A stretch of DNA of 37,767 bases from a virus. Location: IMG/VR virus record IMGVR_UViG_3300035698_025530, positions 1-37,767 of that record. One strand, given 5' to 3'. Position 1 is the first letter of the stretch. Each line of letters starts with the position of its first letter. A program made the position numbers and the translations under genes. This document shows positions 10,045 through 33,505 of the stretch, in pieces. The notes under the pieces were generated by a model. It was not told the origin of the DNA and did no database searches. It saw only the letters and a program-made list of their open reading frames with translations.

Positions 10045-10483
10045 TGTTTTGATTAAACATTTTAATTATTATTGCTTGAACAACATTCACCGTCACAGCA
10101 TTTCCTAGGCATTTGTAACGCTGAGTATCGCTCAATCCTTCTGTCCATCCATCAGGGAACCCTTGTAGTCTTTCACACTCCGTTGGGGTCAACCTACGAA
10201 TACGTGCGTTCTCTTTGAGGAAGTGCTCTTTTGATTGGTTGGCTGTAATAGTTCCAGAGATGCCATCTTTACGTTCTACTAGTTTCTTTCCTCTTCTTGG
10301 GGAGAAATCTTTCCCTTTACTCAGGGATTCCTTTCGAATGCGTTTAGCTTCTTGAGTGGAGAGAGGTCTCTGTTCGTCCAACCACCCTTGTTTACTCCCC
10401 TTGGGATTTGGTACATCATTGTACGCTTGTCCGATTGCAAGTTCAAAACCACCAATCCCACTAAATAAGCTTAGATATTTCAT
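9983..10483 (-). CDS. C5-cytosine DNA methyltransferase, internally deleted
   Basis: A 166-residue protein that begins with motif I of C5-cytosine methyltransferases (MKYLSLFSGIGGFELAIGQA, the SAM pocket) and ends with motifs IX-X (RRLTPTECERLQGFPDGW and YKCLGNAVTVNVVQAI). Motifs IV (PCQ, catalytic Cys), VI (ENV) and VIII are absent: residue 20 jumps into YNDVPNPKGSKQGW. A normal enzyme needs 300-400 residues. It should therefore be unable to methylate DNA. Either it is a deletion derivative or it retains only a binding role. The ATG lies directly at the 3' end of tRNA-Gln (1 base between). The C-terminus is a charged Lys/Glu tail overlapping the next small gene. Confidence 0.75.
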   Translation of the reverse strand: MKYLSLFSGIGGFELAIGQAYNDVPNPKGSKQGWLDEQRPLSTQEAKRIRKESLSKGKDFSPRRGKKLVERKDGISGTITANQSKEHFLKENARIRRLTPTECERLQGFPDGWTEGLSDTQRYKCLGNAVTVNVVQAIIIKMFNQNNGIQESNNRKKESKEKEEKK

Positions 10484-10556: not shown

Positions 10557-11251
10557 TTTGCGAAATGGAATTTTTCACTAGGCAGTTCTAAAACAGTTAA
10601 TTTATTACTTCTTGGAGGACAGACAGCAGTGTCGATCCCAATTTTATTATCCATTATGATTGGTTCAAAAGCTTCAAACGGGTTTTTATTATACTTCGCA
10701 GTAGCATCGGCTGTGTGGCCGAATATTACTTTCTTCCCCCAATCGTAGTTTGAATCGATGAACTCATCTCGTATCCATAGTCTATCATCTCTGGAGGTTT
10801 CTTGCACACTTTTTCCTGGTTTTACACCTGCATGTACAAATATATAGTCATCGTTTTCATAAAATGGCTCTAACTTGGCTAGAAATTCTATATGCTCTTC
10901 TGGGTATTTTGCTTCTTTTGGTGTTGAACTTAAGACTCTGCCATAATTTCTTTCTGTTACGTCCCCTCCGTTAATTTGCCAGCACATGGGAGCGTACACC
11001 GCGCATTGTCTGAAATAGAAGTCTCTAAACATGTCTTCGTGGTTCCCATCAAGAAAAACCCAGTGAGGATTTTCTGACTTCAGTCCTCTTAGATTTTCTA
11101 TCACTCTTTTTGAGTCTGGTCCACGATCAATGTAGTCACCCAAGAAGATAACCTGGTGTTCTTTTTTAATCGGGAGTTCTTTTAAAAGCTTTTCTAGTGG
11201 TTTGTAACAACCATGGATATCTCCAAATACCCATATTTTCTCGTACTTCAT
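10547..11251 (-). CDS. PP2A/lambda-phosphatase-like serine/threonine phosphatase
   Basis: A 234-residue metallophosphoesterase with the full calcineurin-like motif set: GDIHG (Asp11, His13), GDYIDRGPDS (Asp39, Arg43), GNHED (Asn70, His71), later VHAG and FGHT histidines. This closely follows the bacteriophage lambda protein phosphatase / PrpA family, two-metal (Mn/Fe) enzymes that remove phosphate from Ser, Thr or nucleotide substrates. Insertions are minor and length is normal. The start overlaps the dnaN stop by 4 bases (ATGA type), so the two are translationally coupled. The stop codon lies inside the tRNA-Gln gene. Confidence 0.88.
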   Translation of the reverse strand: MKYEKIWVFGDIHGCYKPLEKLLKELPIKKEHQVIFLGDYIDRGPDSKRVIENLRGLKSENPHWVFLDGNHEDMFRDFYFRQCAVYAPMCWQINGGDVTERNYGRVLSSTPKEAKYPEEHIEFLAKLEPFYENDDYIFVHAGVKPGKSVQETSRDDRLWIRDEFIDSNYDWGKKVIFGHTADATAKYNKNPFEAFEPIIMDNKIGIDTAVCPPRSNKLTVLELPSEKFHFANAE

Positions 11252-12351
11252 AGTCTCATTGGCATAATTAAATGGAAGTAACTTTCATCACCTTTATTAT
11301 CAAATCTAATAACGGCTAGCTCTGATTGAGTTGATATCTCAATTGTTTCTGCATCTGTACTACTAAGGAAGTGTCCCAAATACTTACCAGAGAGGGCTAG
11401 TGTTTTATCTTCTCCGTCGTATTCGACATCAACCTTACTTTCATTTTTTCCCAGATCACTCATTTTAGCCATTAGTTTCAATGAGTTTTTCTCTAACCTT
11501 ATGGTTATTTTATTCCCAAGTGTGTTTTTACCTATGATATTAGCAATTTTCAACGCACTTTCAAGCTCCTCGACGTTGACCTGTACTGAGATCGGTGTAG
11601 ATACTGGGATAACTCCCTTGTAATCTGGGAAACTACCCTGGATTTCACGTGCGATAATTTCTATTCCTGCGAAACTGAAATATGTCATGTACTTATCACT
11701 ATTGTAAACGGTAATCTCATCTGTATCAAACTCCTGGATAGCTTGGTTAACATTCAGAATGCAGTTTCTTGGCACTAAAATACCTTTTCTTGCAATAGTT
11801 TCTGATTTAACTGTGAGCTTTGATAGTCTACAACCATCTGCCGTCACAAAACTCATACTTTTGTCTTTTATTTCAAATTTCACTCCTTGCAGAACTGGTT
11901 TCACATCATCTGTAGCAGAAGCAAAGACCACCTCTTTGGCAACCCTTTGCAACGTCTCCTTTGATAGTGTAAATTTCTTCCACGATGTGTCGATTTCATC
12001 AAATTTAGGGAAATTATCTATTTCCATTGTATTAAGATCGACACTACTTTTTAACCCCTTTACCTTTAAAACCTTCCCAGCCATACTAAAGGATAAATTT
12101 TCTCCAGCTGTAAGTTTCACAAAACTCGAAAGCTGTGACGCTGATACGGTTGTAGCACCTTTTACAGCTACTTCGGCTGGAATGGACGCTCTAAATGTTG
12201 TCTCCATATCTGTGGCGACAATCTTTACATGATCCTCATAAGCTTCTAGAAAGAAGTTTGCCATGACTGGAACGCCAGCATACTTTTTAACTGCTCTGAT
12301 CCCGACGTTAACATACTTAATAAGCTCTTCTCGGTTTAAAGTGAATTGCAT
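11248..12351 (-). CDS. dnaN: DNA polymerase III beta subunit (sliding clamp)
   Basis: A 367-residue protein of normal beta-clamp length and three-domain pattern. Family signatures: the N-terminal MQFTLNREELIKYVNVGIRAV, VKIVATDMETTFRA, VTADGCRLSKLTV at the second domain, REIQGSFPDYKGVIP at the domain 2/3 junction, and the C-terminal FHLIMPMRL, which corresponds to the YVVMPMRL clamp end that helps form the peptide-binding pocket. It would form a ring on DNA tethering the polymerase. Sequence is divergent from typical host clamps. Its location among phage-type genes without dnaA or recF next to it argues for a phage-encoded clamp. Coupled with the phosphatase gene. Confidence 0.93.
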   Translation of the reverse strand: MQFTLNREELIKYVNVGIRAVKKYAGVPVMANFFLEAYEDHVKIVATDMETTFRASIPAEVAVKGATTVSASQLSSFVKLTAGENLSFSMAGKVLKVKGLKSSVDLNTMEIDNFPKFDEIDTSWKKFTLSKETLQRVAKEVVFASATDDVKPVLQGVKFEIKDKSMSFVTADGCRLSKLTVKSETIARKGILVPRNCILNVNQAIQEFDTDEITVYNSDKYMTYFSFAGIEIIAREIQGSFPDYKGVIPVSTPISVQVNVEELESALKIANIIGKNTLGNKITIRLEKNSLKLMAKMSDLGKNESKVDVEYDGEDKTLALSGKYLGHFLSSTDAETIEISTQSELAVIRFDNKGDESYFHLIMPMRL

Positions 12352-16326: not shown

Positions 16327-18759
16327 ATGGGTTTATCTTATAGTATTGTTGTGGATATACAGTTAAATGATATTGAAAAATTGATTGAGAAATGGAAGGG
16401 AGATCCTATAGCATTCGTTAAAGAAGCATTAAGGGTTGAACCAGAGAAGAATCAAGCAGAGATTTTAAAGGCATTGCCAGAAAATCACTTTATCGCTATA
16501 AAGTCAGGCCATGGAGTGGGTAAATGTTTTGGCGTCGGGACGGTAATTTTGATGCATAGTGGGGATGCGAAAAAGGTGGAAGATGTCGTTGTTGGAGATC
16601 TTCTAATGGGTGATGATGAAACGCCAAGGAAAGTTCTATCAACTGCGGCTGGAAACGAGCAGATGTATCGCATAAAATATAAGAGTGGTGAATATTATGA
16701 CGTGAATGAGTCACACATTCTTAGTTTGGTTGCATCGCAAACCCATGGAAGGCAAAAGCGTGGTGATATAACAAATGTTTCTGTTAAGGAATACTTAACA
16801 TGGAGTAGAAGAAGACAAAGGACAAATATTGGTTATAAGATGTCCTGTAGATTTAGCGAAAAGGAACTTGGAATTGACCCATATATATTGGGGGTTTGGC
16901 TCGGTGACGGGACAAGCGTTGCTCCAGAGATAACCAATATAGACCAGCCCATACTGGATGCTTGGTATGAAGATTGCGAGGGTAGGGGAATGATTATGAA
17001 AAGGTACAGAGAAATTTCATACTACATGACTAGGAATACTGAGGTTGGGCAAAGGCAAAATAACATGATGAATGATTTACGTTTTTACGATCTAATTGGA
17101 AACAAACACATTCCAAAGATATACAAGACTTCTTCTATTGATCAGAGGTTGGAATTGTTAGCTGGATTACTAGATTCCGACGGGTACTTAGGTACTAGCT
17201 CTTTTGAAATTATACAGAAAAATAAACAGTTAGCAGATGATATTGTTTGGGTGGCACGTTCGGTGGGGTGCCACGCTACGATTAGGGAAGTACAAAAATC
17301 ATGTAAATATAAGGGTGAGAAGAGAGTGGGGACTTATCATCGCGTTTTTATTAGTAGAAACGTAGACCGTATCCCTACAAGAATAAAGCGGAAACAGTAC
17401 AGACCAATCACTAAGCAAAGGTGCCGATTACACTATGGGTTTGATGTTATCCCCCTAGGAGTTGGGACATATTACGGCTTTGAAATTGATGGTAATGGCT
17501 TATTTGCATTGAATGATTTTACTGTAACGCACAACACGACTTTGCTATCTTGGATAATTTTATGGTTTATTACATGTTATTCGGATGTGAGAATTCCGTG
17601 TACAGCACCGACGGAGGCTCAATTGACTACTGTGTTATGGCCAGAGGTGAACAAATGGCTACAGAATTCGTTTTTAAGGGACATTGTTACTTGGTGGAAG
17701 ACTAAAATCTTCTTTACTGGGAATGAAAAAGGGTCTTTCGCACTTTTTAGGGCTGCGAGAAAACCAGAAGCGTTAGCAGGATTCCATGCAGACAACATTC
17801 TTTTCCTAGTCGACGAGGCTAGTGGTGTGGATGATCCTATATGGGGACCTATAGAGGGGGCTTTAACTGGTGAGAATTCCAGAGCGATTGTCGCAGGGAA
17901 CCCTACGAGGGCAGAAGGTAATTTCTATAGATGTTTCACAGATGATTCCAAATATTGGAAACACTTTACAATCAACTGTGAGGACAGTGATCGTGTAAGT
18001 AAAACATACATAGAGAGAATGAAAAGTAAGTACGGAGAGGATAGCGACATGTATCGTATCCGTGTTAAGGGTGATTTCCCAGAGATGTTGGGTAGTACAT
18101 TCATACCATTCCATTTATGTGAAAGAAGTCGTGGTTCTGACGTATTTGAGGGTGGAAGAAAAAGGCTTGGTGTTGACCCTGCTGGTAGTGGTGGAGATTA
18201 TGCCGTGTGGCTTATTAGGTGTGGTGGAAAGATAATACATGTGGAAAGACAGCAAATAACAGATCCTATGCAGGTTGCAGGGAATACAGTTCGGTTGATT
18301 AGGCAGTTTAATCTCGATGCTGGTGATGTTTTTGTTGATAAAATTGGTGAAGGCTCAGGGACTGTTGCACGTCTTATAGAGTTAGGTTATAATGTTATTG
18401 GTGTAAACGTAGCTCTCCCTGTTCCAAGGGAGGAAGACAAAGAGGTTTACTCAAACATTAGAGCTTGGCTTTATGGGATGGTCAGAGACGAATTACAGGC
18501 GAATAGGCTTAACCTTACTGTTCCAAATTCCCGTGAGTACACGGAGGGTTTGTGCGGTGAGTTAGCAAGTCCTAGATTCAAGTTCTCGTCTAAGGGCCAA
18601 TATGTTTTGGAAAGTAAAAGGGATATGAAGAGCAGGGGTGTGAGTAGTCCTGACATCGGAGACGCATTAGCACTAACGTACTATGAGTCAATTGATGGGG
18701 ATGCATCTCCAATGTTTTGGAGTCCTGGAAGTTTTAATTTACGTGATGATGATTTCTAG
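16327..18759 (+). CDS. terL: Terminase large subunit TerL containing an intein
   Basis: 810 residues: a 473-residue TerL interrupted by a 337-residue intein (residues 67-403). The extein halves join as KSGHGVGK-TTLLSW, a perfect Walker A. Walker B is LFLVDEASG (Asp496, Glu497), the coupling motif region is VAGNP, and the RNase-H-like nuclease carboxylates are Asp617 (GVDPAGSGGDYA), Asp671 (VFVDKIGEG) and Asp776/Asp779 (SPDIGDALAL). TerL is the ATP-driven motor that packages and cuts phage DNA. It starts the rightward structural operon; no TerS is recognised. Without splicing the P-loop is split, so the motor should be inactive. Portal follows 2 bases after the stop. Confidence 0.93.
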   Translation: MGLSYSIVVDIQLNDIEKLIEKWKGDPIAFVKEALRVEPEKNQAEILKALPENHFIAIKSGHGVGKCFGVGTVILMHSGDAKKVEDVVVGDLLMGDDETPRKVLSTAAGNEQMYRIKYKSGEYYDVNESHILSLVASQTHGRQKRGDITNVSVKEYLTWSRRRQRTNIGYKMSCRFSEKELGIDPYILGVWLGDGTSVAPEITNIDQPILDAWYEDCEGRGMIMKRYREISYYMTRNTEVGQRQNNMMNDLRFYDLIGNKHIPKIYKTSSIDQRLELLAGLLDSDGYLGTSSFEIIQKNKQLADDIVWVARSVGCHATIREVQKSCKYKGEKRVGTYHRVFISRNVDRIPTRIKRKQYRPITKQRCRLHYGFDVIPLGVGTYYGFEIDGNGLFALNDFTVTHNTTLLSWIILWFITCYSDVRIPCTAPTEAQLTTVLWPEVNKWLQNSFLRDIVTWWKTKIFFTGNEKGSFALFRAARKPEALAGFHADNILFLVDEASGVDDPIWGPIEGALTGENSRAIVAGNPTRAEGNFYRCFTDDSKYWKHFTINCEDSDRVSKTYIERMKSKYGEDSDMYRIRVKGDFPEMLGSTFIPFHLCERSRGSDVFEGGRKRLGVDPAGSGGDYAVWLIRCGGKIIHVERQQITDPMQVAGNTVRLIRQFNLDAGDVFVDKIGEGSGTVARLIELGYNVIGVNVALPVPREEDKEVYSNIRAWLYGMVRDELQANRLNLTVPNSREYTEGLCGELASPRFKFSSKGQYVLESKRDMKSRGVSSPDIGDALALTYYESIDGDASPMFWSPGSFNLRDDDF
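16525..17535 (+). mobile_element. Intein with LAGLIDADG homing endonuclease, in the TerL P-loop
   Basis: In-frame insertion within TerL. Splice features: N-terminal Cys67 (CFGVGTVILMHSGDAKKVEDVVVGDLL, block A), block B GEYYDVNESHILSL, block F/G YYGFEIDGNGLFALNDFTVTHN with penultimate His402 and Asn403, and extein Thr404 as nucleophile. Two LAGLIDADG helices are present: GVWLGDGTS and LLAGLLDSDGYL, each with its catalytic acid, so both splicing and homing functions look intact. The insertion falls between Lys and Thr of the Walker A lysine-threonine pair, a favoured intein site in ATPases. Confidence 0.95.
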
Positions 18760-18761
18760 AA

Positions 18762-20786
18762 ATGGAAAATGAAAATATAAAAGAGGTAAAAGCGGTTAAT
18801 GGGCAGTTATGCTCTGTTTCTGCTTCTACACCGCAACAGCCAGCTAAGAATGCTGAGCAATTTTTAAAAGGTTATACTGGTTGGGTTTATAGTGCGGTTA
18901 ACCTATCAGCAAAGAAGTTTGCTGAAGTCGAGATCAAGCTATATAGACGAAAGATAGTAGTGATCAATGGTCAGGAGACAAGAGAAGTTACAGAGGTTTT
19001 TGAACACGAATCAAAATCTGTTTTACAACATGTTAATGATTTCATGACACTCCCTCAATTAAAGGAGGTAACCTCTATTTATTTGGATTTGTTAGGTGAG
19101 GCAGCATGGGTTCTTTTTAGGGACAGAACAGGTGTACCTGTAGAAATTTGGCCAATAAGGCCAGATTGGTTACAGATCATTCCTTCCGAGACTGAATATA
19201 TAGACCATTACGATTACACGCCTACCAACGGAGAGAGTTGTAAGATTCCAAAGGAAGATGTGATCTTCATGAAGGAATTTGGACCAAGAAATCCATATAG
19301 AGGGTACGGAAAGGTTCAAGCTGCTGCACTAGCAATTGACATAGACACATTTTCTGACGAGTGGAATAGAAAATTCTTTTTTAACAACGCTTTACCAGAT
19401 TTCTTTTTGGTTACAAAAAGCAGTGTTACCGATGGACAGGTGAAAAGATTAATGGAATCTCTTTATAGAGAATTCCAAGGGAGAAGAAATGCACATAAAA
19501 TAGGAGTGATTCGAGGGGACTGGGAGGTAATAGAGGTGAAGAGGAATATGCAGGAATTGGATTATTTGAAATCTAAGGAGTTCCTTAGGGATCAAATTCT
19601 TTCAGCATGGCATACTTCTAAGGCTAATCTAGGAATTGTTGACGACGTAAACAGAGCTTCAATGGAAGCTGCAAATGCAGCATATTCAAGTAAGGTTACA
19701 AAGCCACGACTTGTTAGTTTTGTTGGAGCGCTTAATGAATTTTATTTAACAAATTGGCCAAGTGCGGAGAAGGAAGGGCTTTTTTATGGGTTTGTTGACC
19801 CTGTAAAAGCTGATACAGCTGCACAAGCAGAGTTTCTATCACTTGCGTCTAAGCATGGGTGGATGTCTCCAAACGAAATTAGGTCAGAGTTGAATTTACC
19901 ACCAGTAGAAGGTGGAGATATTATTTATGTTCCATTCACAATGCAACCACTTGGGACACCAATGCCTGGATCTGCTGCTGATGAGGCTTTGTCACTAGAA
20001 TTAACTGGTGGTGAGACAGGTACAGATGATGGTGCGGCAGACATAGAAGAGGATGACGAGGATATTGATGAAAATGAAGGAAAGAGTGGATTGTGGGGTA
20101 GGATATTTAAGAAGAAATCACCTAGTAAGAAAGCAATTGTAACTCCTAAGTATCTTGGGCTTAGAGCCCCAAGACCTCAGAGGAAGATTAACCTTGGGAT
20201 TCCAATTCCAGTTAAATCATTAAAGTCAATAAAGAAACAGCAGTTAAAAGAGGAGTTAAGAACTCCTGCAAAGACGTTAATTATGAGCCTTATGAGAAAG
20301 AATCAGCTCGATGAAAGCGAAGTGAAAAAGGTTTATAGTCAAGAGTATAAGGATGCACTCTGGAAGCAACTTGCTGCGAGGAATAGTGTCCCACAAGGGA
20401 AGCTATTAGATATAATTACAGATTTGGCGACCGAGCAAGAGGCAATCGTTATTAAAAAGATTGAAGATCATTCTAATAATTTTAAGTTCGCCAAGAACAA
20501 GATTACCCCAAGCACATTTCTTTTCCCATTGGAAAAAGAAAACAAGAGGTGGGAGGAAAAGATTTTCCCATTCATTGAGGATCTAATTGATTCTTCTGGA
20601 CAAAGTGCTTTGGATGAGTTTGGGTTTGATAGTGAGTTTGATGACGATGATGATAGAATTGCAGAATTTTTAATAATTCTCTCAATAGTATTTATAGATA
20701 GTGTTAACAGAACAACTAGGGAAAAGATTGAAAAGATAAATCGCAGACGCCTTGGTTGCTGGCCTTACTATGGACGAGGTCGTTGA
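18762..20786 (+). CDS. Portal protein with start of a fused MuF domain
   Basis: 674 residues. Residues about 30-400 are an HK97-type portal protein (GYTGWVYSAVNLSAKKFAEVEIKLYRR, KSKEFLRDQILSAWHTSKANLGIVDD, FLSLASKHGWMSPNEIRSELNLPPVEGGD), forming the dodecameric ring through which DNA enters the head. An acidic linker (about residues 427-443) is followed by a helical region (residues 490-665) that matches the N-terminal part of MuF/gp7 minor head proteins and ends ...NRTTREKIEKIN. At that point the MuF homology leaves this frame and continues in the +1 frame, leaving an unrelated end (RRRLGCWPYYGRGR). So the full portal-MuF polyprotein is split by an apparent frameshift near 20736-20745. It begins 2 bases after terL. 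Confidence 0.88.
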   Translation: MENENIKEVKAVNGQLCSVSASTPQQPAKNAEQFLKGYTGWVYSAVNLSAKKFAEVEIKLYRRKIVVINGQETREVTEVFEHESKSVLQHVNDFMTLPQLKEVTSIYLDLLGEAAWVLFRDRTGVPVEIWPIRPDWLQIIPSETEYIDHYDYTPTNGESCKIPKEDVIFMKEFGPRNPYRGYGKVQAAALAIDIDTFSDEWNRKFFFNNALPDFFLVTKSSVTDGQVKRLMESLYREFQGRRNAHKIGVIRGDWEVIEVKRNMQELDYLKSKEFLRDQILSAWHTSKANLGIVDDVNRASMEAANAAYSSKVTKPRLVSFVGALNEFYLTNWPSAEKEGLFYGFVDPVKADTAAQAEFLSLASKHGWMSPNEIRSELNLPPVEGGDIIYVPFTMQPLGTPMPGSAADEALSLELTGGETGTDDGAADIEEDDEDIDENEGKSGLWGRIFKKKSPSKKAIVTPKYLGLRAPRPQRKINLGIPIPVKSLKSIKKQQLKEELRTPAKTLIMSLMRKNQLDESEVKKVYSQEYKDALWKQLAARNSVPQGKLLDIITDLATEQEAIVIKKIEDHSNNFKFAKNKITPSTFLFPLEKENKRWEEKIFPFIEDLIDSSGQSALDEFGFDSEFDDDDDRIAEFLIILSIVFIDSVNRTTREKIEKINRRRLGCWPYYGRGR

Positions 20787-22866
20787 TTTGGTTAATGAGG
20801 TCTACAACTCGCTAAGGTCTGGTAGAGGCGGAACAATTTCACAGACAGAAGTTTGGAGGGCATTTAATTTTGCAAGTTGGTTGGCTTTTTCACAGACTGG
20901 GTTAGTCGTTTCAAAGGAATGGTTGACTGCTGGCGATGAAAAGGTCAGGATTGCCCACCAAGAGGCGGAGGGACAGATTGTCGGTTTTGACGAACCATTT
21001 ATAGTTGGTGGCGAGGAGCTCATGTATCCTACTGATCCAGTTGGAAGTGCGGATAACACAGTAAACTGTAGATGTGCAATGCTTCCTCTGACTACATTAG
21101 ATTTAAGAAGTATTGGAATGAATGCAAAAGAAAAGAACGACAAAAGAGTTGAAGATGTGTATGACGGTGTCATGCAGAAGATTGTTGAGAAGAGTTATTC
21201 TAAGATGCTTGAGAAGATAGATGAGGGTGGTAAAGAGATCTCTGATTTGAAAGATAAGAAAGTCGAGATAAGGGATTCTGTTAAACGAGAAGTTGAAGAA
21301 ATGGTGAAAACTGAGTTTAAAAAAATGGACAAGGAAACAAAGGAGAGAGCAATTGAGCAGAAAGCTATTGTTGAACAGGAGATTAAAGTAGAGAACAAGA
21401 GTTTGATTGACAGTATAAGAGACGGTAGAGATACCTTGGATGGTGTGGATAAAGGTATCCAAAAACTTCAAAGGGTTAGGGCAGGGATTAAAAAGGAAGT
21501 TTCACGTGAAACTGAAATTGCTAGGGAAAATGAAAAGGTCAAGCAAAAGCAAAGGGCGATTGAAGAAACGACTATTGCAAATGCTGAGAGAGACTTGGTA
21601 GTGAAAAATACTTTAAAAATAGAAGAAGATGCATCAGAGAAAACAAAGAAGATTGAACAGGAAGTGTTAGATCTTCAGAAAACAAGGGACTCTATTAAGA
21701 AGGATGTGAAACTAGAAACGAAGATGGCGAAGAAAGAGGCTAGCAAGAAATTAAAGGAAGAAATGATTGAAGAAACTGCTATTGTAAGTGCTGGAAAAGG
21801 TTTGATTGAGAAATCTATCAAGAAAAAGAGTGAGAAATTAACTAAGGAACTAGGCAAGGTCACTACAGAGATTTCAGAACTACAGAAGGTTAGAGCTAGT
21901 ATAAAGGAAGATATTGCACAAGAGAAAAAGGATGTTCTAGTGAAACAGAAAGAAGTGTCAAAAGAAAGGATTATAGAGGAAACTGCAATTATGAATGCAG
22001 AAAAGGCGTTAATGGAGAAAAATATGGAGAAGTCTCTTTTAGAGTCCGATTTGGAATTGGCTAAAAGAAAGGCAAAAATCAAGAGTCTCGGTGATGATAT
22101 TGAGAGTCTACAGAAAGACAGGGATGGTGTTAAGAAGGACATTATTGAGCAGCAGAAAAAGACTTTAACTGAAGAGAGAGAAAGAGTTGCAAAAGAATTG
22201 TTAATAGAAAAGAGTTTTGCAGAAGATTTAGTGCAAAAAGACCTGAACAGATTAGAGACTAAGGTCCAAAAGAAGAATAAAGCTCTAAACAACATCAATG
22301 AAAAAGTTTCAAAAGCGAGAGAGAACTTAAAGGACTTGAAGGTAGAAATGAAAAATAAAACAGAAGAACTTGTAGCAAAACAGGAAAAAGAGGTAAGAGA
22401 AGACAAAATTCAAAAAGAAGCTATCATGGACGATAGTTTTGTCGAGTTGCAAAAGGAGTTAGAAAAGCTTGAAACTCTTCTAGTTAAGAGGGAAAAGGAG
22501 CTTGGGAATTTAGATGAAAAGAAATGGGCTAAAGAGGCATCTATTAAAGGTGATTACGATGCATTTTTGGAGAAACAGGAAAATAAATTGAAGAAGAAAG
22601 CCGATGAAAGAAGGAAAGAGCTTGAAGGTGGTATTGATCTTCTTGATAAAAGTTTCAAGGTAAAAAGGGATGAGGTAAAGAAGTTGGAAGGCGATAAGGA
22701 GAAGATAGCCGCAGAAAACAAAAAGAAGATAGACAGTGCCAACCAAAAAGCTGATGGAATTATAGAGAAAGCTAAAAAGTCTGCACAGAAGATCACTGAA
22801 AAGGCTAAAAAAGAGTTTAAATTGTTAAGAGACAAAGTAGATGGGATCATCAATAGAGGAGATTAA
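20752..22866 (+). CDS. MuF C-terminal domain fused to a long repetitive coiled coil
   Basis: 704 residues from TTG 20752; ATG 20770 (MDEVVDLVNE) is the alternative. Residues 1-115 are the C-terminal half of phage Mu F-like head morphogenesis protein: VWRAFNFASWLAFSQTG, WLTAGDEKVRIAHQEAEGQ and DNTVNCRCAMLPL (the T-AGDE..R..H and NCRC signatures). Residues about 125-704 are Lys/Glu-rich, nearly pure coiled coil, including four units of about 69 residues (201-483). No SD precedes either start, so expression may depend on frameshifting from the portal gene. MuF proteins are minor capsid components ejected or bound near the portal; a helical extension of nearly 600 residues is unusual and could act as an internal scaffold. 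That role is inference. Confidence 0.8.
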   Translation: MVAGLTMDEVVDLVNEVYNSLRSGRGGTISQTEVWRAFNFASWLAFSQTGLVVSKEWLTAGDEKVRIAHQEAEGQIVGFDEPFIVGGEELMYPTDPVGSADNTVNCRCAMLPLTTLDLRSIGMNAKEKNDKRVEDVYDGVMQKIVEKSYSKMLEKIDEGGKEISDLKDKKVEIRDSVKREVEEMVKTEFKKMDKETKERAIEQKAIVEQEIKVENKSLIDSIRDGRDTLDGVDKGIQKLQRVRAGIKKEVSRETEIARENEKVKQKQRAIEETTIANAERDLVVKNTLKIEEDASEKTKKIEQEVLDLQKTRDSIKKDVKLETKMAKKEASKKLKEEMIEETAIVSAGKGLIEKSIKKKSEKLTKELGKVTTEISELQKVRASIKEDIAQEKKDVLVKQKEVSKERIIEETAIMNAEKALMEKNMEKSLLESDLELAKRKAKIKSLGDDIESLQKDRDGVKKDIIEQQKKTLTEERERVAKELLIEKSFAEDLVQKDLNRLETKVQKKNKALNNINEKVSKARENLKDLKVEMKNKTEELVAKQEKEVREDKIQKEAIMDDSFVELQKELEKLETLLVKREKELGNLDEKKWAKEASIKGDYDAFLEKQENKLKKKADERRKELEGGIDLLDKSFKVKRDEVKKLEGDKEKIAAENKKKIDSANQKADGIIEKAKKSAQKITEKAKKEFKLLRDKVDGIINRGD
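21352..22200 (+). repeat. Four tandem coiled-coil repeats of 69-76 residues
   Basis: Within the MuF fusion, anchor 1 recurs at residues 201 (IEQKAIVEQE), 270 (IEETTIANAE), 339 (IEETAIVSAG), 408 (IEETAIMNAE) and, weaker, 484. Anchor 2 recurs at 239 (LQRVRAGIKKE), 308 (LQKTRDSIKKD), 377 (LQKVRASIKED) and 453 (LQKDRDGVKKD). Spacing is 69, 69 and 69-76 residues, i.e. units of 207 to 228 bases that have diverged. Confidence 0.85.
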
Positions 22867-23269
22867 AAAGAGGGTGGGTGGGCAGATTGTAGTTAGGAAA
22901 GCGGAGAGGAAACAAAGAGCTCAGGACGAGCTTATTAGAGAGCCCTACATGTTCGAACTTTTAGAGAAATTACTAGAGGCTGTAAAAGAAAGCAAAATAG
23001 ATTTCCCCGAGGAGTTAAGTGTTTGGGTTAGGAATAAAACCAAACCATTGAAGCAGGTTTCCATTTCAAATTTAAAAGAAATCAAACCAAAAGACGAGGT
23101 TAAGATTACAAATCTAGAAGAAGTAAAGTTTCCAGACGAGATAAAGGTTAGTGGGTTAGAAGAGTTGATAGAAACAACGAAAAAGCAGAACAGTAATATT
23201 GAGACAATGATTAGAGATTTAACCAATATTAGAAATGACATTAGGAAATGGATAAACTCGAAGAGATAA
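22841..23269 (+). CDS. Small helical structural-module protein
   Basis: A 142-residue protein overlapping the MuF fusion by 26 bases. The N-terminal part is basic and helical (EEIKKRVGGQIVVRKAERKQR, then FELLEKLLEAVKESK). The middle has short beta-type repeats: VSISNLKEIKPKDEV, VKITNLEEVKFPDEI, IKVSGLEELIE. The C-terminus is a coiled coil (KKQNSNIETMIRDLTNIRNDIRKW). Such alternating short 'V-x-x-NL-E' repeats occur in phage structural proteins that I cannot name precisely. The overlap on both sides with structural genes suggests a virion or assembly role. Confidence 0.6.
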   Translation: MGSSIEEIKKRVGGQIVVRKAERKQRAQDELIREPYMFELLEKLLEAVKESKIDFPEELSVWVRNKTKPLKQVSISNLKEIKPKDEVKITNLEEVKFPDEIKVSGLEELIETTKKQNSNIETMIRDLTNIRNDIRKWINSKR

Positions 23270-24051
23270 GAGATGAGTTAACAAATGTTGTTGGAGATAA
23301 TGACAGTCAAACTTTAAAGCGGATTGTATCTGCGATAAAGGATTCAAACCCAAATGCAGAGATACTTGGGAAGATTGCTAATTTTGAAGAAAAATTAGTT
23401 GAAGACAACATTGATGTAAAATCTCTACTACTAGAGGTTGCTCAATTTGTTAAGGATTTCAAAAAGGTGAAACAGGGTGCTGCGGGGTTGGCAGGAGAGC
23501 CAGTTTTAAGTCCTGATTCACAGACCCAGATAGTCGATGCAAACGGATATGTGGCTGAAGTTGATGAGAGGTCTGGCAGCTTGAAGATTTTACAATACAG
23601 GCAATCTGTAATGAACGATGGTAACCACTATTTTGTTAAAGATGTCTATGATATTCCTGCAAGTACGACTGTTTATTTTATATTTAGGACACCCAACACT
23701 TCGACAAGAATACATGCTTTTGTTGCACTGGACGCAGAGTCGGAGTTCGATGTAAGCATATTCAAAGATGCTGCCGTAAGTGCTGATGGTACGCCAATAA
23801 CTGCACAGAACAACGACCAAGACAGCACCAATACTCCAGAACTTTCACCGTTTGCCAATCCTACTGTAAGTGATGAGGGTACGGAAATTTGGCACGCCAA
23901 AGTTGGTGTGGGGAAAAGCGCTGGTGTAAGTAATCAGCTTAATTACGAGATCCAAGCTAAGACTAACTCAATTTACTTATTCAAGATGGTGAATAATAAT
24001 GCACAAGAGAAATGGATAGATGTAGATTTTTATTGGTATGAAAATGCTTAA
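23248..24051 (+). CDS. Probable virion surface / structural protein
   Basis: 267 residues starting 22 bases inside the preceding gene. Residues 1-80 are helical (DKLEEIRDELTNVVG ... FVKDFKKVKQGAAG); residues 90-267 are beta-rich: YFVKDVYDIPASTTVYFIFRTPNTSTRIHAFVALDAESEFDVSIFKDAAV ... and ending EKWIDVDFYWYENA. This beta domain resembles a family that I recall as common near phage portal and capsid genes, with the pattern 'tPnt..w.H...e...e....l.E..t...GT'. It may be a decoration or fibre-base protein. No enzyme motif. Confidence 0.6.
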   Translation: MDKLEEIRDELTNVVGDNDSQTLKRIVSAIKDSNPNAEILGKIANFEEKLVEDNIDVKSLLLEVAQFVKDFKKVKQGAAGLAGEPVLSPDSQTQIVDANGYVAEVDERSGSLKILQYRQSVMNDGNHYFVKDVYDIPASTTVYFIFRTPNTSTRIHAFVALDAESEFDVSIFKDAAVSADGTPITAQNNDQDSTNTPELSPFANPTVSDEGTEIWHAKVGVGKSAGVSNQLNYEIQAKTNSIYLFKMVNNNAQEKWIDVDFYWYENA

Positions 24052-24053
24052 AC

Positions 24054-27000
24054 ATGAGTAATTGCATAAAAGAAATAATTGACGGTGTGAATCAGCGCAG
24101 TGGGGATCTGTTTAATCAGAATGATTACACAAAAGAGCCTACAGGTTTTACAACGGCTGAAGACGTTATTATTACGGGTGATAGTGCAACACGAACAGTT
24201 ACTTTGACTGGAACATTCAGTGCTTATTATAGAGGAATTGAAAACAGTACAATCGTTAGTGGTTACACTTCTCCTGCACATGGAACTGATACAAATGAAC
24301 AATATCTCTTAGTTTATAATGGTAGTGCCATATTATGGTTGGATTCTTCAGGGCTTACAGAGACTTTTTATCAAGATTTGTTGGTTTGCTTTGCATTCTA
24401 TGATAGCACTAACTCAACGTGGGTTTATTTAAGAGAATGTCACGGTTTAATGCCTTGGGAAGCACACAGAGAGTTTCATCAAACAACAGGCACATATAGA
24501 CGCAGTGGCGGTGCATTACAGGATTACACTTTAGCTAGTACGACTGCTGCTGATAGGAGGCCAAGTGTTGAGGCAACACTATTGTATGACGAAGACTTAC
24601 CAACAATAAGTCCAGTTCTTAACGATAGTTCTTATTCTAATTTCTATTTAAGTGGTGCCGGTGGTGGTGATGTCAATGTAAATATTAATCAAGCAGATAT
24701 AGTTCCACTTAGTACAAACAGGCCATACTGGAATGAATTCACGGGTGGTGCTTGGCAACAAACTTTAATGTCTAATAACAATTATATGGCTGTATGGGTG
24801 CTTTGTATACCTATGGCATCTGATACAAGCTCCCAGGAATTTAGATATTTATTTATTCAAGGTCAAAAACAGGATAATTCCTTGTCTAATTTCCAAGCCC
24901 TAACTCCACAGGATGTCTCCATAGGTGTATTAAGGGGATTGTTACCTGAGCTTGTTGTTACAAACAAAGTAATTATCCAATACAAATCTAGTAATTGGAA
25001 ATTAATTGAGGTCTCTGAAATTACTGGTACAAGTTCAAGCCAAACAACTTCACCTGCTGGAAATTATTTAACAAGTGTGACTTCAGACACGACATTAACA
25101 GGGCTGGGGACACCTTCTACTCCATTAAGCGTAGTTCAAAGTTATCCTATTTTAGCAGGACTCGCAGGAGGTCAAACACTCATAGGCGGTACACTGACCA
25201 CAGAGGATTTAACACTTCAAGATAATATAGTTGATGGAAATTCGATTACGGTTACTAGAATGTTAGAAATGTCTAGCTGGTTAGATCAGGATGTCAAGGT
25301 GGCAGCTAGTCCAACCTTTGAAGATTTAACAATTACTACTCCAGTAAATATCTATGCACTTTCTCACGATTCCTTTACCGATTATGTCGGTGATGAACAC
25401 GTAGCTCACTCAGGCGTTGATATTACTGCTGGTGCTGGTTTAACTGGTGGCGGAAATATTGCTGCTACTAGAACTTTAAATATTGGAGCTGGTACAGGAA
25501 TTACAGTTAATGCAGATACTATTCAAACTGATGATAGCGCAATTGATCATAATGCGCTTCTTAATACTCATAACCTCACCACCGATATTGATCACGATGC
25601 CATTACCAACACTCACCAAGATGTTAAAACTACAGCTTCACCAACATTCGTCAACGTTTCAAGCTCAAATAATGCCACAAATAATGATCATCTAGTTAGA
25701 TTAGATCAAATGAATAGTGCCATTGCCGGATTAGATTGGCAGCAAAGCGTAATAAACTTCTTTGATCCTACAGGCGGATTACCTGGCACACCTTCTACAG
25801 GTGATAGATATATTTCTACTGCTACAGCTAATGGCTGGACTGATGATTATATTTATGAATACAACGGTGCGACTTGGGACGAAACTATACCAAATGAGGG
25901 GTACACTGTTTGGGTTGAAGATCTCGATACAAACTATACTTTCAATGGTACAGCCTGGGTAGAATTTGGCTCCACTGTGTCCCACAATAACACAACAGGA
26001 CTACAGGGTGGCACAACAGCCGAGTATTATCATTTGACATCAGCACAACACGCAGAAGCAACTAGAGATGCAACTAATGTCCAAAATGGATTAATGCCTA
26101 CTGGAAAGCTAGATAATTGGGATGCAGCCTATACTCACTCGCAAGATAACACTCAAGCACATACAGACTACTTGATTAATAATGGTGATGACTCGACAAG
26201 TGGACGACTAACAGCAGCAGGATTTACTTCGAGTGAAGTTATAAATGTTACCAAATCAACGAACGCTCTATTCGATGCTTTTACCCTTACTAACACAAAC
26301 ACAGGGGCTTCGGCTGGTGTTAGAGCGCAGATAACAACTGACAAAGGTTCAATGTTTATTGAATCGTTTGGTGAAAACTTCTCTGTGGCTAACTGGGCTG
26401 GTAAAGGTGGTATTTTAACGTCTGCAAGCTTAGATGGAATGGTTTTCTCTTCTCCAAACTCAATTCAGTTTGACGATGATAGTGCAGCTACACAGTTTTA
26501 TTTTGATACTGATAACGGCTATCTTGGTGTGGGTACAGTTTCTCCTATCAGAACAGTTCACATTGTTGGTGCTGATGGGGCAGTTCCAGATATGCCGGCT
26601 AACCTTGGAGCTAAAGATTATATGTTGTTTGAGAATAACCAGAATATGAACTTTGGTTTTATAGCTGGTGTTGGCAAGTCAACAGGAATAAAGTTTTATG
26701 AATCAGGTAATGATGATTTTGCTGGAATGTTATTTTATAGGCATGGGGCTGACCAGTTTCTCTCGCTTGGCGTTGATGGGAATACAAATGATTTTACTGT
26801 TTTCACTGATGAGATTGTAGCTAATGACGATGCAAATGATATGGACTTTAGAGTAGAGGGGGACACTCTCCCGTACATGTTCTTTACAGACGCTACGGCA
26901 ACTACTGAAAATATCGCACTACTGACAGCTACCTCCCCAAACTGGCAATCAATGGATAGGGGTGTGTTTATTGGGGATGTGAGCACAGCTCCAACAGGCA

Positions 27001-27092
27001 ACCCTACCGCAGGGGGATTTCTGTATGTAGAGTCGGGTGCCTTGAAGTTTAGGGGTAGTTCTGGAACCGTAACAACAATTGCAGCCGCTTAA
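24054..27092 (+). CDS. Large tail-fibre / receptor-binding-type protein
   Basis: 1012 residues, 2 bases after the preceding gene. The N-terminal about 330 residues contain beta-rich domains (EDVIITGDSATRTVTLTGTF ... YLLVYNGSAILWLDSSG). From about residue 335 it becomes a repetitive fibre: WLDQDVKVAASPTFEDLTITTP, VDITAGAGLTGGGNIAATRTLNIGAGTGITVNAD, IDHDAITNTHQDVKTTASPTF, GLQGGTTAEYYHLTSAQHAEATRD. It ends with SGALKFRGSSGTVTTIAAA, a typical end of phage fibres. These trimeric beta-structured repeats are used for host binding. The position, before the protease and capsid genes rather than after the tail genes, is unusual. A head fibre is an alternative to a tail fibre. Confidence 0.85.
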   Translation: MSNCIKEIIDGVNQRSGDLFNQNDYTKEPTGFTTAEDVIITGDSATRTVTLTGTFSAYYRGIENSTIVSGYTSPAHGTDTNEQYLLVYNGSAILWLDSSGLTETFYQDLLVCFAFYDSTNSTWVYLRECHGLMPWEAHREFHQTTGTYRRSGGALQDYTLASTTAADRRPSVEATLLYDEDLPTISPVLNDSSYSNFYLSGAGGGDVNVNINQADIVPLSTNRPYWNEFTGGAWQQTLMSNNNYMAVWVLCIPMASDTSSQEFRYLFIQGQKQDNSLSNFQALTPQDVSIGVLRGLLPELVVTNKVIIQYKSSNWKLIEVSEITGTSSSQTTSPAGNYLTSVTSDTTLTGLGTPSTPLSVVQSYPILAGLAGGQTLIGGTLTTEDLTLQDNIVDGNSITVTRMLEMSSWLDQDVKVAASPTFEDLTITTPVNIYALSHDSFTDYVGDEHVAHSGVDITAGAGLTGGGNIAATRTLNIGAGTGITVNADTIQTDDSAIDHNALLNTHNLTTDIDHDAITNTHQDVKTTASPTFVNVSSSNNATNNDHLVRLDQMNSAIAGLDWQQSVINFFDPTGGLPGTPSTGDRYISTATANGWTDDYIYEYNGATWDETIPNEGYTVWVEDLDTNYTFNGTAWVEFGSTVSHNNTTGLQGGTTAEYYHLTSAQHAEATRDATNVQNGLMPTGKLDNWDAAYTHSQDNTQAHTDYLINNGDDSTSGRLTAAGFTSSEVINVTKSTNALFDAFTLTNTNTGASAGVRAQITTDKGSMFIESFGENFSVANWAGKGGILTSASLDGMVFSSPNSIQFDDDSAATQFYFDTDNGYLGVGTVSPIRTVHIVGADGAVPDMPANLGAKDYMLFENNQNMNFGFIAGVGKSTGIKFYESGNDDFAGMLFYRHGADQFLSLGVDGNTNDFTVFTDEIVANDDANDMDFRVEGDTLPYMFFTDATATTENIALLTATSPNWQSMDRGVFIGDVSTAPTGNPTAGGFLYVESGALKFRGSSGTVTTIAAA

Positions 27093-27652: not shown

Positions 27653-29032
27653 ATGGCTGAGATAAAGACACTTGATAAATTTCACACACTTTCTAATAAA
27701 AAGTTCAAAGGTGAGTTTGATAAGTTAGATACTGTAGATATTACAGCGGATAGGGATGGTGATGAAACAAAGGGATTGAAGGGTTTATTTGAGCCTAAGT
27801 CCAAACAGTTTAAGACCTACTTATTTGATAAAGAGGAATGGACAAAGGATGAGGCGAAGGAATGGCTTTCAAAGAATCAAGATAAAACAGAGGCAAAATC
27901 TGTAACTGGTTCTATTGAAAAGAAAGAGGATGGAATGTTGGTTATTGCGTCAGAAGAGGTTGAGGATAGAGAGGGAGAGGTTTTAAGTATTAAAGGTTGG
28001 GAGCTTGACAATTTCAAGTTGAACCCAGTGATGCTTTGGTATCACAATATGAGGGGTGATGGTGTCCCAGTAGGTAGAGTTGAAGATCTAAAAGTCCAGA
28101 AAATTAATGGAAAGAAGAGATTAACATTTAGACCAGTATTCCAAGAGGTAACGCAATTTGCAAGAGATCTAAAGAGATTGGTTGAAGAGGGATTCCTTAA
28201 CGCTGTTTCTGTTGGGTTTTTACCAAAGGAAAGAGATGGCAATACATACACAAAGCAAGAGCTTTTAGAAATTAGTTTGGTTCCAGTACCAGCATTACAA
28301 AGTGCAGTTTTCATACAGAGAGCTAAAAAAGGGTTGGAATTGACTAGAAAGAGAGCATTGAAATTCGTTGAAGGGAAGGCAGTTGTTCCATTTAGGGCAT
28401 ACTCACCAGCACCAGAATCTAAGAAATGGTCTGCAAGTGCAGCCGAAAAGAGAGGTACTGAGTGGGCAGGTGGAAAAGAGGATTTGGATTGGAACGAATA
28501 CAAGGAATTATTCACATGGTACGACGTAGAGAACAAAGATAAGCTTGGCTCATACAAGCTTCCACATCACGATGTAGAAGGTAAAACACTTATCACAGTA
28601 TGGAGAGGTGTCGTTGCAGCAATGGGTGCTCTATTAGGAGCAAGAGGTGGAGTTGATGTACCGGAATCAGAGAAGAAGAGAATTTACAATCACCTTGTAA
28701 AACATTATGAACAGTTCGACATGACACCACCAGAGTTTAGATTAGTCCAGACACAAGAACTGAAAGAGATGTTTGAAATTTTAGAGGATATGGCTTTCGC
28801 AAGAGCGGAGAAAGATTCCAAGAAAATGTTGACAACTATTATGAAAGAAATAAAGACTGCAAAAGCAGAGAAAGAAGTAATTAATTTTAGCGCGAAGGCT
28901 AAAGAGCCTGCATACAAATCACAAGAGGAACTTACGGTCGCCCTTGTCAATAAAGTCGGATCTGCATTAGCAGAAAAGCTAGTTGGGGACAGTAAGTCTG
29001 TTGAAAAATCTCATAAAAAGGAGGAAAAATAA
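27653..29032 (+). CDS. Prohead protease (HK97/U35 type) with extra C-terminal domain
   Basis: 459 residues, far longer than a usual prohead protease (about 200). Residues 75-225 are the protease: DREGEVLSIKGWELDNFKLNPVMLWYHN with catalytic His131, then FLNAVSVGFLPKE with catalytic Ser186, and LLEISLVPVPALQSA. Residues about 245-365 hold a second module (KKWSASAAEKRGTEWAGG ... YKLPHHDVEGKTLITVWRGVVAAMGALLGARGG ... RIYNHLVKHYEQFDMTPPEF), found joined to phage proteases elsewhere; function unclear. A helical charged tail follows, as in scaffold regions. The protease trims scaffold and capsid delta domains during head maturation. The capsid gene follows directly, its SD lying inside this gene's end. 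Confidence 0.9.
   Translation: MAEIKTLDKFHTLSNKKFKGEFDKLDTVDITADRDGDETKGLKGLFEPKSKQFKTYLFDKEEWTKDEAKEWLSKNQDKTEAKSVTGSIEKKEDGMLVIASEEVEDREGEVLSIKGWELDNFKLNPVMLWYHNMRGDGVPVGRVEDLKVQKINGKKRLTFRPVFQEVTQFARDLKRLVEEGFLNAVSVGFLPKERDGNTYTKQELLEISLVPVPALQSAVFIQRAKKGLELTRKRALKFVEGKAVVPFRAYSPAPESKKWSASAAEKRGTEWAGGKEDLDWNEYKELFTWYDVENKDKLGSYKLPHHDVEGKTLITVWRGVVAAMGALLGARGGVDVPESEKKRIYNHLVKHYEQFDMTPPEFRLVQTQELKEMFEILEDMAFARAEKDSKKMLTTIMKEIKTAKAEKEVINFSAKAKEPAYKSQEELTVALVNKVGSALAEKLVGDSKSVEKSHKKEEK
29018..29024 (+). promoter_or_regulatory. Consensus RBS of the major capsid gene
   Basis: AAGGAGG, fully complementary to a standard anti-SD, lies 10 bases before ATG 29035 and inside the last codons of the protease gene. 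It is the strongest SD in the window, in keeping with the highest-demand protein. Confidence 0.8.
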
Positions 29033-29034: not shown

Positions 29035-30246
29035 ATGGAAAACGAAACAATAAAAGACATGATCCGCGAGGTAATGGCTGAGAAAGAAGAGAAATTAGAA
29101 AAAGAGAGTAAGAAAGTGGAGGAAAAGGCTACTGTCGAAACTTCAATCGACTTAGAAAAGGCTGCTGAAAAAGCTGCCGAAATTCTAGCAGAGACGATGA
29201 TGAAGAAGATGGGTGGAGAGAATACTGCTGACAAAGATAAAATCAAGTCAACAATCTACACTCAAAAAGAAGGCTTTAAAGCAATTGAGTATCCTGCACA
29301 GAAAGATCTCGGTAAGTTGTCAGATGATGACAAGCTTGTTCTTTATTTCAAGTCTCTTACAGACAGATCTTATGAAGGAGAAGGAATTAGAAAGGCGCTT
29401 TCTGAAGGTGTAGCTGCTGATGGTGGGAACTTAGTTCCAACCCCTCTAGCTAACGAAATCTTTAGAATTCTCCCTGACCTATCCGTCATGAGACGACTCG
29501 CAAGAATTATGCCTATGTCTTCACAGACTTTAGCAATACCTGCACAGTCTACAAATCCAGAAGCTTATTGGATTGGTGAAAATAAAACCAAGACAACAAC
29601 TTCTATTGAGTGGGACCAAAAAACACTCACAGCTAACAAGCTGGTATGTAGAATCCCTGTGTCAGAAGAGTTGCTTGCAGATGCTAACTTTGATCTAGTA
29701 CAGATCATAATCGAGCAGTTTGCAGAAGCAATCGCTGAAGCAGAAGACAGAGCATTCTTCACAGGATCCGGAACAGGACAGCCAAGAGGTATCTCATTAG
29801 AGACCTTGACGACTATTGATGCTGGTGGAAACCTCACATTTGATGATGTGTTGACACTAATTCATACACCTGATCAGGCAGTTAGAAACTCTAATAAAGC
29901 CGCTTTTACAGCACACAAGACAGTAATTGAACAACTTCGAACACTCAAAGATGGTAATAACAACTATATTTGGAGAAACGGAGTGAGAGAATCTGGGGAA
30001 ACTCAGAGACTCCCAGATATGTTATACGGTTACCCTATTTACGAGCAGAACGATCTAAATCAGAAGGAGTTATACTTCGGAGATTGGAAACAGTATGTAA
30101 TCGGTGATAGACAACAGATAACAATCAGAACAAGTACTGAGGGCGCTGAAGCATGGCAGAGAGATCAATTAGAAATCAAAGCTGTGGAAAGAGTGGATGG
30201 AAAAGCAATCATTCCTAGAGCATTCGTAAAGGCTAACAACCTCTAA
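29035..30246 (+). CDS. Major capsid protein (HK97 fold)
   Basis: 403 residues. Residues 1-75 are a charged coiled coil (delta/scaffold domain: MIREVMAEKEEKLEKESKKVEEKATV...), likely removed by the upstream protease. The HK97-fold body follows: ALSEGVAADGGNLVPTPLANEIFRILPDLSVMRRLARIMPM, AYWIGENKTKTTTSIEWDQKTLTANKLVCRIPVSEELLADA, AEAEDRAFFTGSGTGQPRGI, DMLYGYPIYEQNDL and the C-terminal FGDWKQYVIGDRQQITIRTS. This protein forms the icosahedral shell. Consensus SD upstream; a hairpin follows the stop. Confidence 0.96.
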   Translation: MENETIKDMIREVMAEKEEKLEKESKKVEEKATVETSIDLEKAAEKAAEILAETMMKKMGGENTADKDKIKSTIYTQKEGFKAIEYPAQKDLGKLSDDDKLVLYFKSLTDRSYEGEGIRKALSEGVAADGGNLVPTPLANEIFRILPDLSVMRRLARIMPMSSQTLAIPAQSTNPEAYWIGENKTKTTTSIEWDQKTLTANKLVCRIPVSEELLADANFDLVQIIIEQFAEAIAEAEDRAFFTGSGTGQPRGISLETLTTIDAGGNLTFDDVLTLIHTPDQAVRNSNKAAFTAHKTVIEQLRTLKDGNNNYIWRNGVRESGETQRLPDMLYGYPIYEQNDLNQKELYFGDWKQYVIGDRQQITIRTSTEGAEAWQRDQLEIKAVERVDGKAIIPRAFVKANNL

Positions 30247-32186: not shown

Positions 32187-32616
32187 GAACATTAGGGGTA
32201 CGGAGAAGTTAACAAAATTAGGGAAAAACTTAAAGACCTTAAAATTTTCAGATAGAGCACAGTTATTCCTTAAGAAGATGGGAGTTAAAACAATAGCTAT
32301 CATACGAAGGGAGATTTTAACTGGTAATCATCGTGCTGTTAAGACTGGTGAAATGGCAAGATCGGTAAGAGTTCTTAAAACACAGAAAGATCTAATAGAG
32401 GTTGGGCCAGATGTTGATTATGCTCTACCAGTACACGATGGGCATGCACAGAAACCTGGTAGATATGTTGCACAGATAGGAAAGAAATTAGTGAGGCCGT
32501 TTGTAAAGGGTAGGCCATTCTTAAATCCATCTGTAAAGCTTGTAGAGGCAGAGATAGAGAAGTCTGGCAGTGAGTTCTCAAAGTTTATAAGTGTTAATAT
32601 TTTTAGGGGAACGTAA
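32179..32616 (+). CDS. HK97 gp10-like neck/tail-completion protein
   Basis: 145 residues with the pattern of HK97-gp10_like proteins: a helical start (LTKLGKNLKTLKFSDRAQLFLKKMGVKTIAIIRREI), VKTGEMARSVRVLKTQKDLIEVGPDVDYALPVHDGH and the typical GRPFLNPSVKLVEAEIEK near the end. It joins the tail to the neck. Overlaps the genes on either side by 8 bases and 1 base. Confidence 0.82.
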   Translation: MPKNIRGTEKLTKLGKNLKTLKFSDRAQLFLKKMGVKTIAIIRREILTGNHRAVKTGEMARSVRVLKTQKDLIEVGPDVDYALPVHDGHAQKPGRYVAQIGKKLVRPFVKGRPFLNPSVKLVEAEIEKSGSEFSKFISVNIFRGT

Positions 32617-33056
32617 TGAGTTGGCAAGTACTAAGGGCTCAAGTGACAGAAGTATTGCAAGGAATAACAAATATTGCAGAGGTTTCGTCGAGTCCAAAGT
32701 TAAATTTCAATAGTTATCCTGCTGTGACAGTAACCCCAGCTACAAACGGGAGTGCTTATCAGACGCAAGGCGATAACGAACGAACATACGCATTTGATGT
32801 TTCTCTTTTCTATGAAACAAAGATATCTACAATTGAAGTAGCTATTGGTATTTTAGACGGTATTGTGGACGAAGTTATTGACAAGTTCGATGAGGAGAAT
32901 GATAGTCAAACACGGACAATAGGGCAGGATTTACCTGCAAATAGTATCTTTCTCGATGTTAGGGTTTTAAAGGGAGAGTGGAATGAAGTTCCAGGAGAAC
33001 AATTATTACTTGTCCCAATTATTATTCAAATTAGATTATTAGTAGATATATCGTAG
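32616..33056 (+). CDS. Tail terminator-like protein, paralogue 1
   Basis: 146 residues, SWQVLRAQVTEVLQGITNIAEVSSSPKLNFNSYPAVTVTPATNG ... RTYAFDVSLFYETKI ... IILIDVS-like end. Size, alpha-beta pattern and position fit the tail terminator/tail-completion family (gpU/DUF3168-like). The next gene encodes a clear paralogue. Starts with 1-base overlap (taATG). Confidence 0.65.
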   Translation: MSWQVLRAQVTEVLQGITNIAEVSSSPKLNFNSYPAVTVTPATNGSAYQTQGDNERTYAFDVSLFYETKISTIEVAIGILDGIVDEVIDKFDEENDSQTRTIGQDLPANSIFLDVRVLKGEWNEVPGEQLLLVPIIIQIRLLVDIS

Positions 33057-33505
33057 TGTCATACAATACATTAAGACCACAAATTAAGACTTTACTGGAG
33101 ACAGTAAACAATGTCCAGGAAGTATCTGCATCACCGACTCTAAACGTGAGTGGTTACCCTGCGATAATAATAAACGACGCTGAGAATTCTGATGAATATG
33201 AGAATAATGCTGAGAACATAAGGAATTATGACTTTAGCATTATTCTCCTGTATGAGACAAAAACAGGAGATATAAGTTCAGCCTTTGATAGGCTGGAACC
33301 TATAGTTGATGATGTTATCAACCTTTTTGATGAAGAAGATCAGAAAGGAAAGAGTACAAGAACAATAGGTATAGATTTACCAAGTGGTTATACATTTATA
33401 AACATTTGGGCGACCCCGAGTGCCTGGGGCCAAATTGGTAAGGCAGAGTTATTAATGTCTACAGTTCGGGTAAGTATTCGAATTGCAGTAGACGTAAGAA
33501 CATAA
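33056..33505 (+). CDS. Tail terminator-like protein, paralogue 2
   Basis: 149 residues from GTG 33056 (overlapping the previous TAG). Shares the whole pattern of its neighbour: YNTLRPQIKTLLETVNNVQEVSASPTLNVSGYPAIIINDAENSDEY, NYDFSIILLYETKTG, FDRLEPIVDDVINLFDEE and a final STRTIGIDLPSG. Conserved words such as EVS.SP.LN, YPA, YETK, DLP confirm a tandem duplication. One copy may cap the tail and the other adapt it to the neck. Confidence 0.7.
   Translation: MSYNTLRPQIKTLLETVNNVQEVSASPTLNVSGYPAIIINDAENSDEYENNAENIRNYDFSIILLYETKTGDISSAFDRLEPIVDDVINLFDEEDQKGKSTRTIGIDLPSGYTFINIWATPSAWGQIGKAELLMSTVRVSIRIAVDVRT

Follow-up and report, generated by a model that had tools for sequence, protein, structure and literature searches.

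The window, by which we mean the whole stretch of DNA analysed here, is a 37,767-base contig from an environmental virus. It belongs to a phage family in which the genes run in the order TerL, portal–MuF, variable genes, S78 protease, HK97-fold capsid protein, connector and tail genes (Table 1). The portal is the ring protein that forms the route by which DNA enters the head. In the window, its gene is divided between two open reading frames (ORFs). The first (18762–20786) encodes an HK97-family portal domain (Pfam Phage_portal, 7e-52, match 18885–19895) followed by a low-complexity linker at about 19960–20250, and its frame terminates at the stop codon at 20784–20786. The second (20752–22866) encodes 704 residues, including the terminal CRC motif of MuF (NCRC at residues 105–108) and a long helical rod.

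Table 1. Features of the portal–MuF–rod locus and the neighbouring head genes
Feature	Coordinates	Strand	Evidence and detail
First half of split gene: portal core, linker, N-terminal helical part of MuF module	18762–20738	+	Pfam, PHROG 2662, model of L127
Frame change inside conserved MuF helix	20737–20742	+	Alignment with fusions; codon-usage switch
Second half of MuF domain, ending in NCRC	20740–21075	+	Pfam Phage_Mu_F 2.7e-7; PHROG 2662 positions 601–705
Helical rod after MuF, residues 115–704 of 704-residue ORF, about 580 residues	21094–22863	+	Self-match, composition, AlphaFold2
Four clear repeat units	21280–22128	+	Starts 21280, 21487, 21694, 21901; 69, 69, 69, 76 residues; anchors, self-match
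Degenerate units, about 69, 72, 72 residues	22129–22767	+	Lag-69 and lag-72 self-matches
C-terminal helix with ..K.LRDK[VI].., common to long tails	22747–22863	+	Tail alignment, motif tests
Variable slot between portal–MuF–rod and protease: 142, 267 and 1012 residues, probably fibrous proteins	22841–27092	+	Gene comparison
S78-family prohead protease	27653–29032	+	Pfam Peptidase_S78 3.9e-5
Scaffold-like (delta-type) N-terminal region of capsid protein (gene 29035–30246)	29035–29400	+	Kept across family

The preliminary description of this DNA took the second ORF to be a complete MuF fusion gene of 704 residues; in fact the ORF begins in the middle of MuF, and the other half of the domain is encoded at the end of the portal ORF. 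Against the portal-family profile PHROG 2662, residues 39–659 of the first ORF match positions 67–594 and residues 3–110 of the second match positions 601–705. Alignment with two phage portal–MuF fusions shows that homology continues through the junction, with invariant positions on both sides, and codon usage moves from the first to the second frame at 20739. Portal and MuF domains are therefore not in one uninterrupted frame in this record, being split at 20737–20742, whereas in close relatives they are. Relatives were gathered by scans with portal and capsid alignments; about twenty related ORFs, some of comparable similarity to the window, have portal and MuF uninterrupted (L007, L091, L092, L119, L127, L142, L145, L188–L195, L198–L200, L202 and others), and a single PHROG 2662 match covers both domains. 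The full product expected from the two frames would be a portal–MuF–rod chain of about 1,370 residues.

The frame change at 20737–20742 could have arisen in assembly, or it could be a variant within the population, a true lesion or a frameshift that the virus uses. An exact-DNA scan across it for a second contig of the same virus returned no match, and neither did a single-protein scan with the portal. Because the polypeptide is interrupted in the record, the virus may fail to make a product with the rod, or may make it in a stoichiometry that differs from that of the portal.

Repeats and helical geometry of the rod

The 69-residue repeats that had been described in this region are real. The anchor IK[KE][DE][VI] occurs at residues 177, 246, 315, 384 and 460 of the 704-residue ORF, giving the reported spacings of 69, 69, 69 and 76. 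When the region after MuF is slid over itself, mean self-similarity peaks clearly at a lag of 69, where it is 5.8 SD higher than at other lags, and peaks again at 138. The best ungapped lag-69 self-match of the ORF (residues ~169–560) scores 345 over 324 residues; the highest score among 200 shuffles was 82. Weaker units follow at a lag of 72, residues ~494–574 matching ~566–646. The span first given, 21352–22200, does hold repeats, but they start near 21280 and the rod extends from about 21094 to the end of the ORF at 22863. Over their first 40 residues, units 1–4 share 11–18 identical positions (28–45%), and the DNA of their first 120 nt is 45–63% identical; this low identity indicates that the duplications in the rod are ancient.

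Residues 141–704 are 49% K, R, D or E and include no proline or cysteine. Their hydrophobic residues follow a single period of 3.628, close to 69/19, with a power of 28.5, where the 99th percentile of shuffles is 9.6. Across 16 overlapping windows of 70 residues the phase never leaves the range 80–174 degrees, but it drifts at periods of 3.5 or 3.667, and so the choice between heptad and hendecad register that the preliminary description had posed is answered by neither. Given this period and the constant phase, each 69-residue repeat returns the stripe to the same side of the helix, and the hydrophobic stripe is nearly straight. Most related tails peak at 3.57–3.67.

In a low-confidence model (mean pLDDT 67, pTM 0.26), AlphaFold2 places MuF at residues 1–114 of the ORF and predicts helices at 115–225, 229–341, 350–445, 453–583 and 591–701, separated by four short breaks of low pLDDT. 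For the intact homologue L127, the model comprises a mostly confident portal core (residues ~20–362), a disordered linker (363–465), helices at the N-terminal end of the MuF module, then MuF as far as residue 757 and a helix reaching residue 1056; the L127 portal matches HK97 and gene-transfer-agent (GTA) portal structures in the PDB. A continuous rod of 560 residues at 0.15 nm per residue would measure ~85 nm if fully extended, which is longer than an ordinary T=7 head, and so a rod inside the head must bend or fold back. The four low-confidence breaks make a folded-back bundle of 14–20 nm helices as possible as a single continuous rod: the constant phase favours continuity, and the ordinary head size favours folding or bending.

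In Pfam, the sole match within the rod is a sub-threshold hit to the coiled coil of ATP-synt_B (E = 0.012), and no toxin domain was found after MuF. A PDB search with the tail alignment returned Nup88, kinesin, apolipoprotein and haemagglutinin (E ≥ 7e-4), which we set aside as coiled-coil look-alikes reflecting low-complexity similarity.

The last ~39 residues of the rod are conserved among the long tails (the window, L127, L121 and L119). In 12 of 15 tails, a Gibbs motif search found a C-terminal motif close to the end; its score of 250 is only slightly above the 235–243 obtained from shuffles. When a profile built from short tails only was applied to eight held-out longer tails, the C-terminal zone ranked 4/579, 2/291, 1/245, 2/227, 14/110, 1/96, 2/80 and 1/90, that is, between first and fourth in seven of them, a result that is suggestive. 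The tests lend moderate support to the presence of the motif in short tails and suggest a docking helix kept at a variable distance from MuF.

Tail length and scaffolding across the family

What follows MuF varies widely among relatives. Nothing is present in L142, L191, L199 and L134; a coiled coil of 37–108 residues is found in L145, L007, L091, L192, L190, L189 and L188, and one of 216–291 residues in L121, L119 and L127. At ~580 residues, the part after MuF in the window is the longest seen, against 0–291 residues of coiled coil in relatives. The L127 tail has a 72-residue repeat of its own. A tree built from portal sequences places the window in one clade with L188, L189, L119 and L127 (support 100/100), and every tail in this clade is a coiled coil of at least 101 residues. 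Two lineages (L193 and L137; L195) have an unrelated domain in place of the coiled coil, and more distant family members encode portal and MuF as separate genes (for example, L009–L013). We read the rod as changing in length through repeat duplication and as something that the wider family can do without. The family provides a natural length series (0, ~40, ~100, ~250, ~290 and ~580 residues) for testing the role of portal-attached internal rods.

The unrelated C-terminal domains of the fusions at L193 2794–5409 and L195 3188–5893 are ~120 residues long and contain a DGxxR motif; a ParB-like reading of these tails, made by eye from DGxxR, was dropped when Pfam found nothing.

Two relatives lie in genome assemblies of Patescibacteria, which are tiny bacteria: L117 in Woesebacteria (capsid proteins 65% identical over 75 residues) and L116 in Magasanikbacteria (34% identical). 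On this basis the host of the window virus is probably also a patescibacterium, and the locus adds structural detail on phages of this group, few of which have been described.

The preliminary description saw no separate scaffold gene and proposed that the rod might fill that role. The capsid protein of the window, however, has about 115–120 residues ahead of the HK97 fold, and family capsid proteins whose start is covered have about 115–150 such residues. The region is charged and resembles helix, and a gene for an S78 protease lies upstream. In HK97, a region of this type is the scaffold, and its coiled-coil towers surround the portal (PMC10275583). The same capsid region and protease occur in L142 and L134, which are tail-less after MuF. 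The capsid protein itself carries a conventional scaffold in cis, and the length of the rod, from 0 to ~580 residues, is not conserved; the preliminary description had named largely this combination as what would refute it. The rod is not needed to explain scaffolding. Both the 704-residue MuF gene and the missing scaffold were products of reading a single record alone.

Possible roles of the rod

Portal–MuF fusions are already known. Those in PHROG 2662 from Bacillus phage Silence (AKU43342.1) and Faecalibacterium phage Roos (XAI97433.1) resemble the window in having a portal core followed by MuF, with homology across the frame change, but their chains stop 5–6 residues past MuF, whereas in the window ~580 residues of helical repeats follow and the chain is divided between two frames. 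In the literature searched we found no account of a portal with a repeat-expanded rod on its MuF module. The rod is a real and unusual variation on a type of protein that is already known.

Among MuF proteins, gp7 of SPP1 has been studied most closely. The SPP1 portal targets it to the procapsid interior, and phages without gp7 assemble but only ~25% are infectious (PMC6316719). Like the window, SPP1 gp7 and the MuF polymorphic toxins combine a portal-binding MuF with a C-terminal extension that varies among many phages (PMC6316719, PMC5576092); they differ in being encoded by a separate gene and present in one or two copies per capsid, and their extensions are toxins rather than rods. In other phages, MuF C-termini carry toxins or other effectors (PMC5576092, PMC5512222). 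The P22 portal offers a structural likeness: its C-terminus is a 123-residue coiled coil forming an inward helical barrel of 15 nm (PMC4992974). There, as in the window, a long coiled-coil helix lengthens the portal C-terminus, which in P22 projects into the head; the window helix is a single-chain prediction, and the P22 barrel rises straight from the portal without MuF; no homology in sequence is claimed. The HK97 delta domain is a coiled-coil scaffold around the portal (PMC10275583), similar to the region on the capsid protein of the window, but it differs from the rod in being part of the capsid protein and not of the portal.

The fusion, the repeats, their register, the variation in length and the separate scaffold are shown by the analysis; from gp7, the P22 barrel and the MuF C-termini of other phages we infer the function, interior location and oligomeric state of the rod. 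Our preferred reading, to which we assign a probability of roughly 55%, is that the locus encodes one portal–MuF–rod polypeptide in which the rod is a portal-anchored internal core element of variable, tunable length. The portal core would form the usual ring of 12 subunits, and the disordered linker would lead to the MuF module at the inner portal face. From MuF, the long α-helical rod with its straight hydrophobic stripe would run into the head and terminate in the conserved amphipathic helix. Being fused to the portal, the rod would need no separate packaging signal. Rods of neighbouring subunits would most likely join along their stripes into a portal-anchored core, comparable to the P22 barrel and to gp7, that may arrange scaffold or DNA about the portal axis or aid the start of DNA exit. 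The preliminary description had suggested an internal scaffold, a core or an ejected protein. It was right that a repeat-built helical rod is joined to MuF beside the portal, and an internal, portal-proximal place is the best reading, but the scaffold part of that suggestion falls away.

Ejection is a less likely reading: the prohead protease would cut the disordered linker, and the freed MuF–rod would leave with the DNA and help it to cross the envelope. Such a pilot protein would accord with the linker predicted to be disordered in L127, with the encoded S78 protease, with the MuF proteins of other phages that are thought to be delivered (PMC5512222, PMC5576092) and with the different domain that occupies the rod slot in L193 and L195. 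However, no cleavage site is known, nothing membrane-active was noticed along the rod, and the existence of tail-less members shows that there is no general need. A role as the assembly scaffold otherwise missing from the operon is highly improbable; although the rod is a coiled coil with 49% charged residues encoded within the head operon, the HK97-type capsid region beside the S78 protease is found even in tail-less relatives, and portal-linked copies would number at most 12. We consider a neck or collar fibre outside the head, similar to a T4 whisker, very unlikely: the length of the rod and the fibrous-looking neighbouring genes would suit it, but in other phages MuF proteins and portal C-termini are inside the head (PMC6316719, PMC4992974).

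Two further explanations concern the frame change itself. It is rather unlikely that the rod is functionless in this record. In that case the frame change would have disrupted the gene or would itself have arisen in assembly, and the rod would not be produced in the form that the ORF implies. The relatives are all uninterrupted, the second ORF lacks a start signal, and inspection of 20737–20742 by eye revealed no established shift-prone site; however, downstream the reading frame stays open over 700 codons and its codon usage is normal, so that any break would be very recent, and most genes in the record lack a Shine–Dalgarno sequence anyway. Doubtful, too, is the idea that the frame change acts as a functional copy-number switch yielding mostly bare portal subunits and a few with MuF and rod. 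A fixed small share of the subunits in a ring would then bear long rods, and the number of repeats would gauge a distance within the head.

Neighbouring genes

The slot between portal–MuF and the protease also holds repeat-rich, probably fibrous proteins in relatives, with (SPSASISL)n at L087 2–8292 and short (TFTIDGIVKE..)n repeats at L089 225–1325, L094 1330–4612 and L096 261–3686. The terminase large subunit gene of the window (16327–18759) is interrupted at the Walker A site by an intein with a LAGLIDADG homing-endonuclease domain; among relatives, a LAGLIDADG insertion lies within the portal at L197 5645–8962, and at L196 1113–3926 the MuF domain carries an intein at its CRC motif. Insertions of this kind seem to be frequent among the family's packaging genes.

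The strand that does not carry the head genes encodes GroEL and GroES-like proteins, the tRNA-His guanylyltransferase Thg1 and a DNA polymerase III beta clamp (6440–8378, 9008–9814 and 11248–12351; − strand), accompanied by genes for tRNA-Gln (CTG) and tRNA-Met. A C5-cytosine methyltransferase ORF of 166 residues (9983–10483, − strand) is matched by Pfam in its C-terminal part only (profile positions 235–323 of 324) and retains the N-terminal FSGIGG; it is probably an internally deleted remnant. Adjacent paralogous genes at 32616–33056 and 33056–33505 encode proteins of 146 and 149 residues, and most relatives compared show one match to both.
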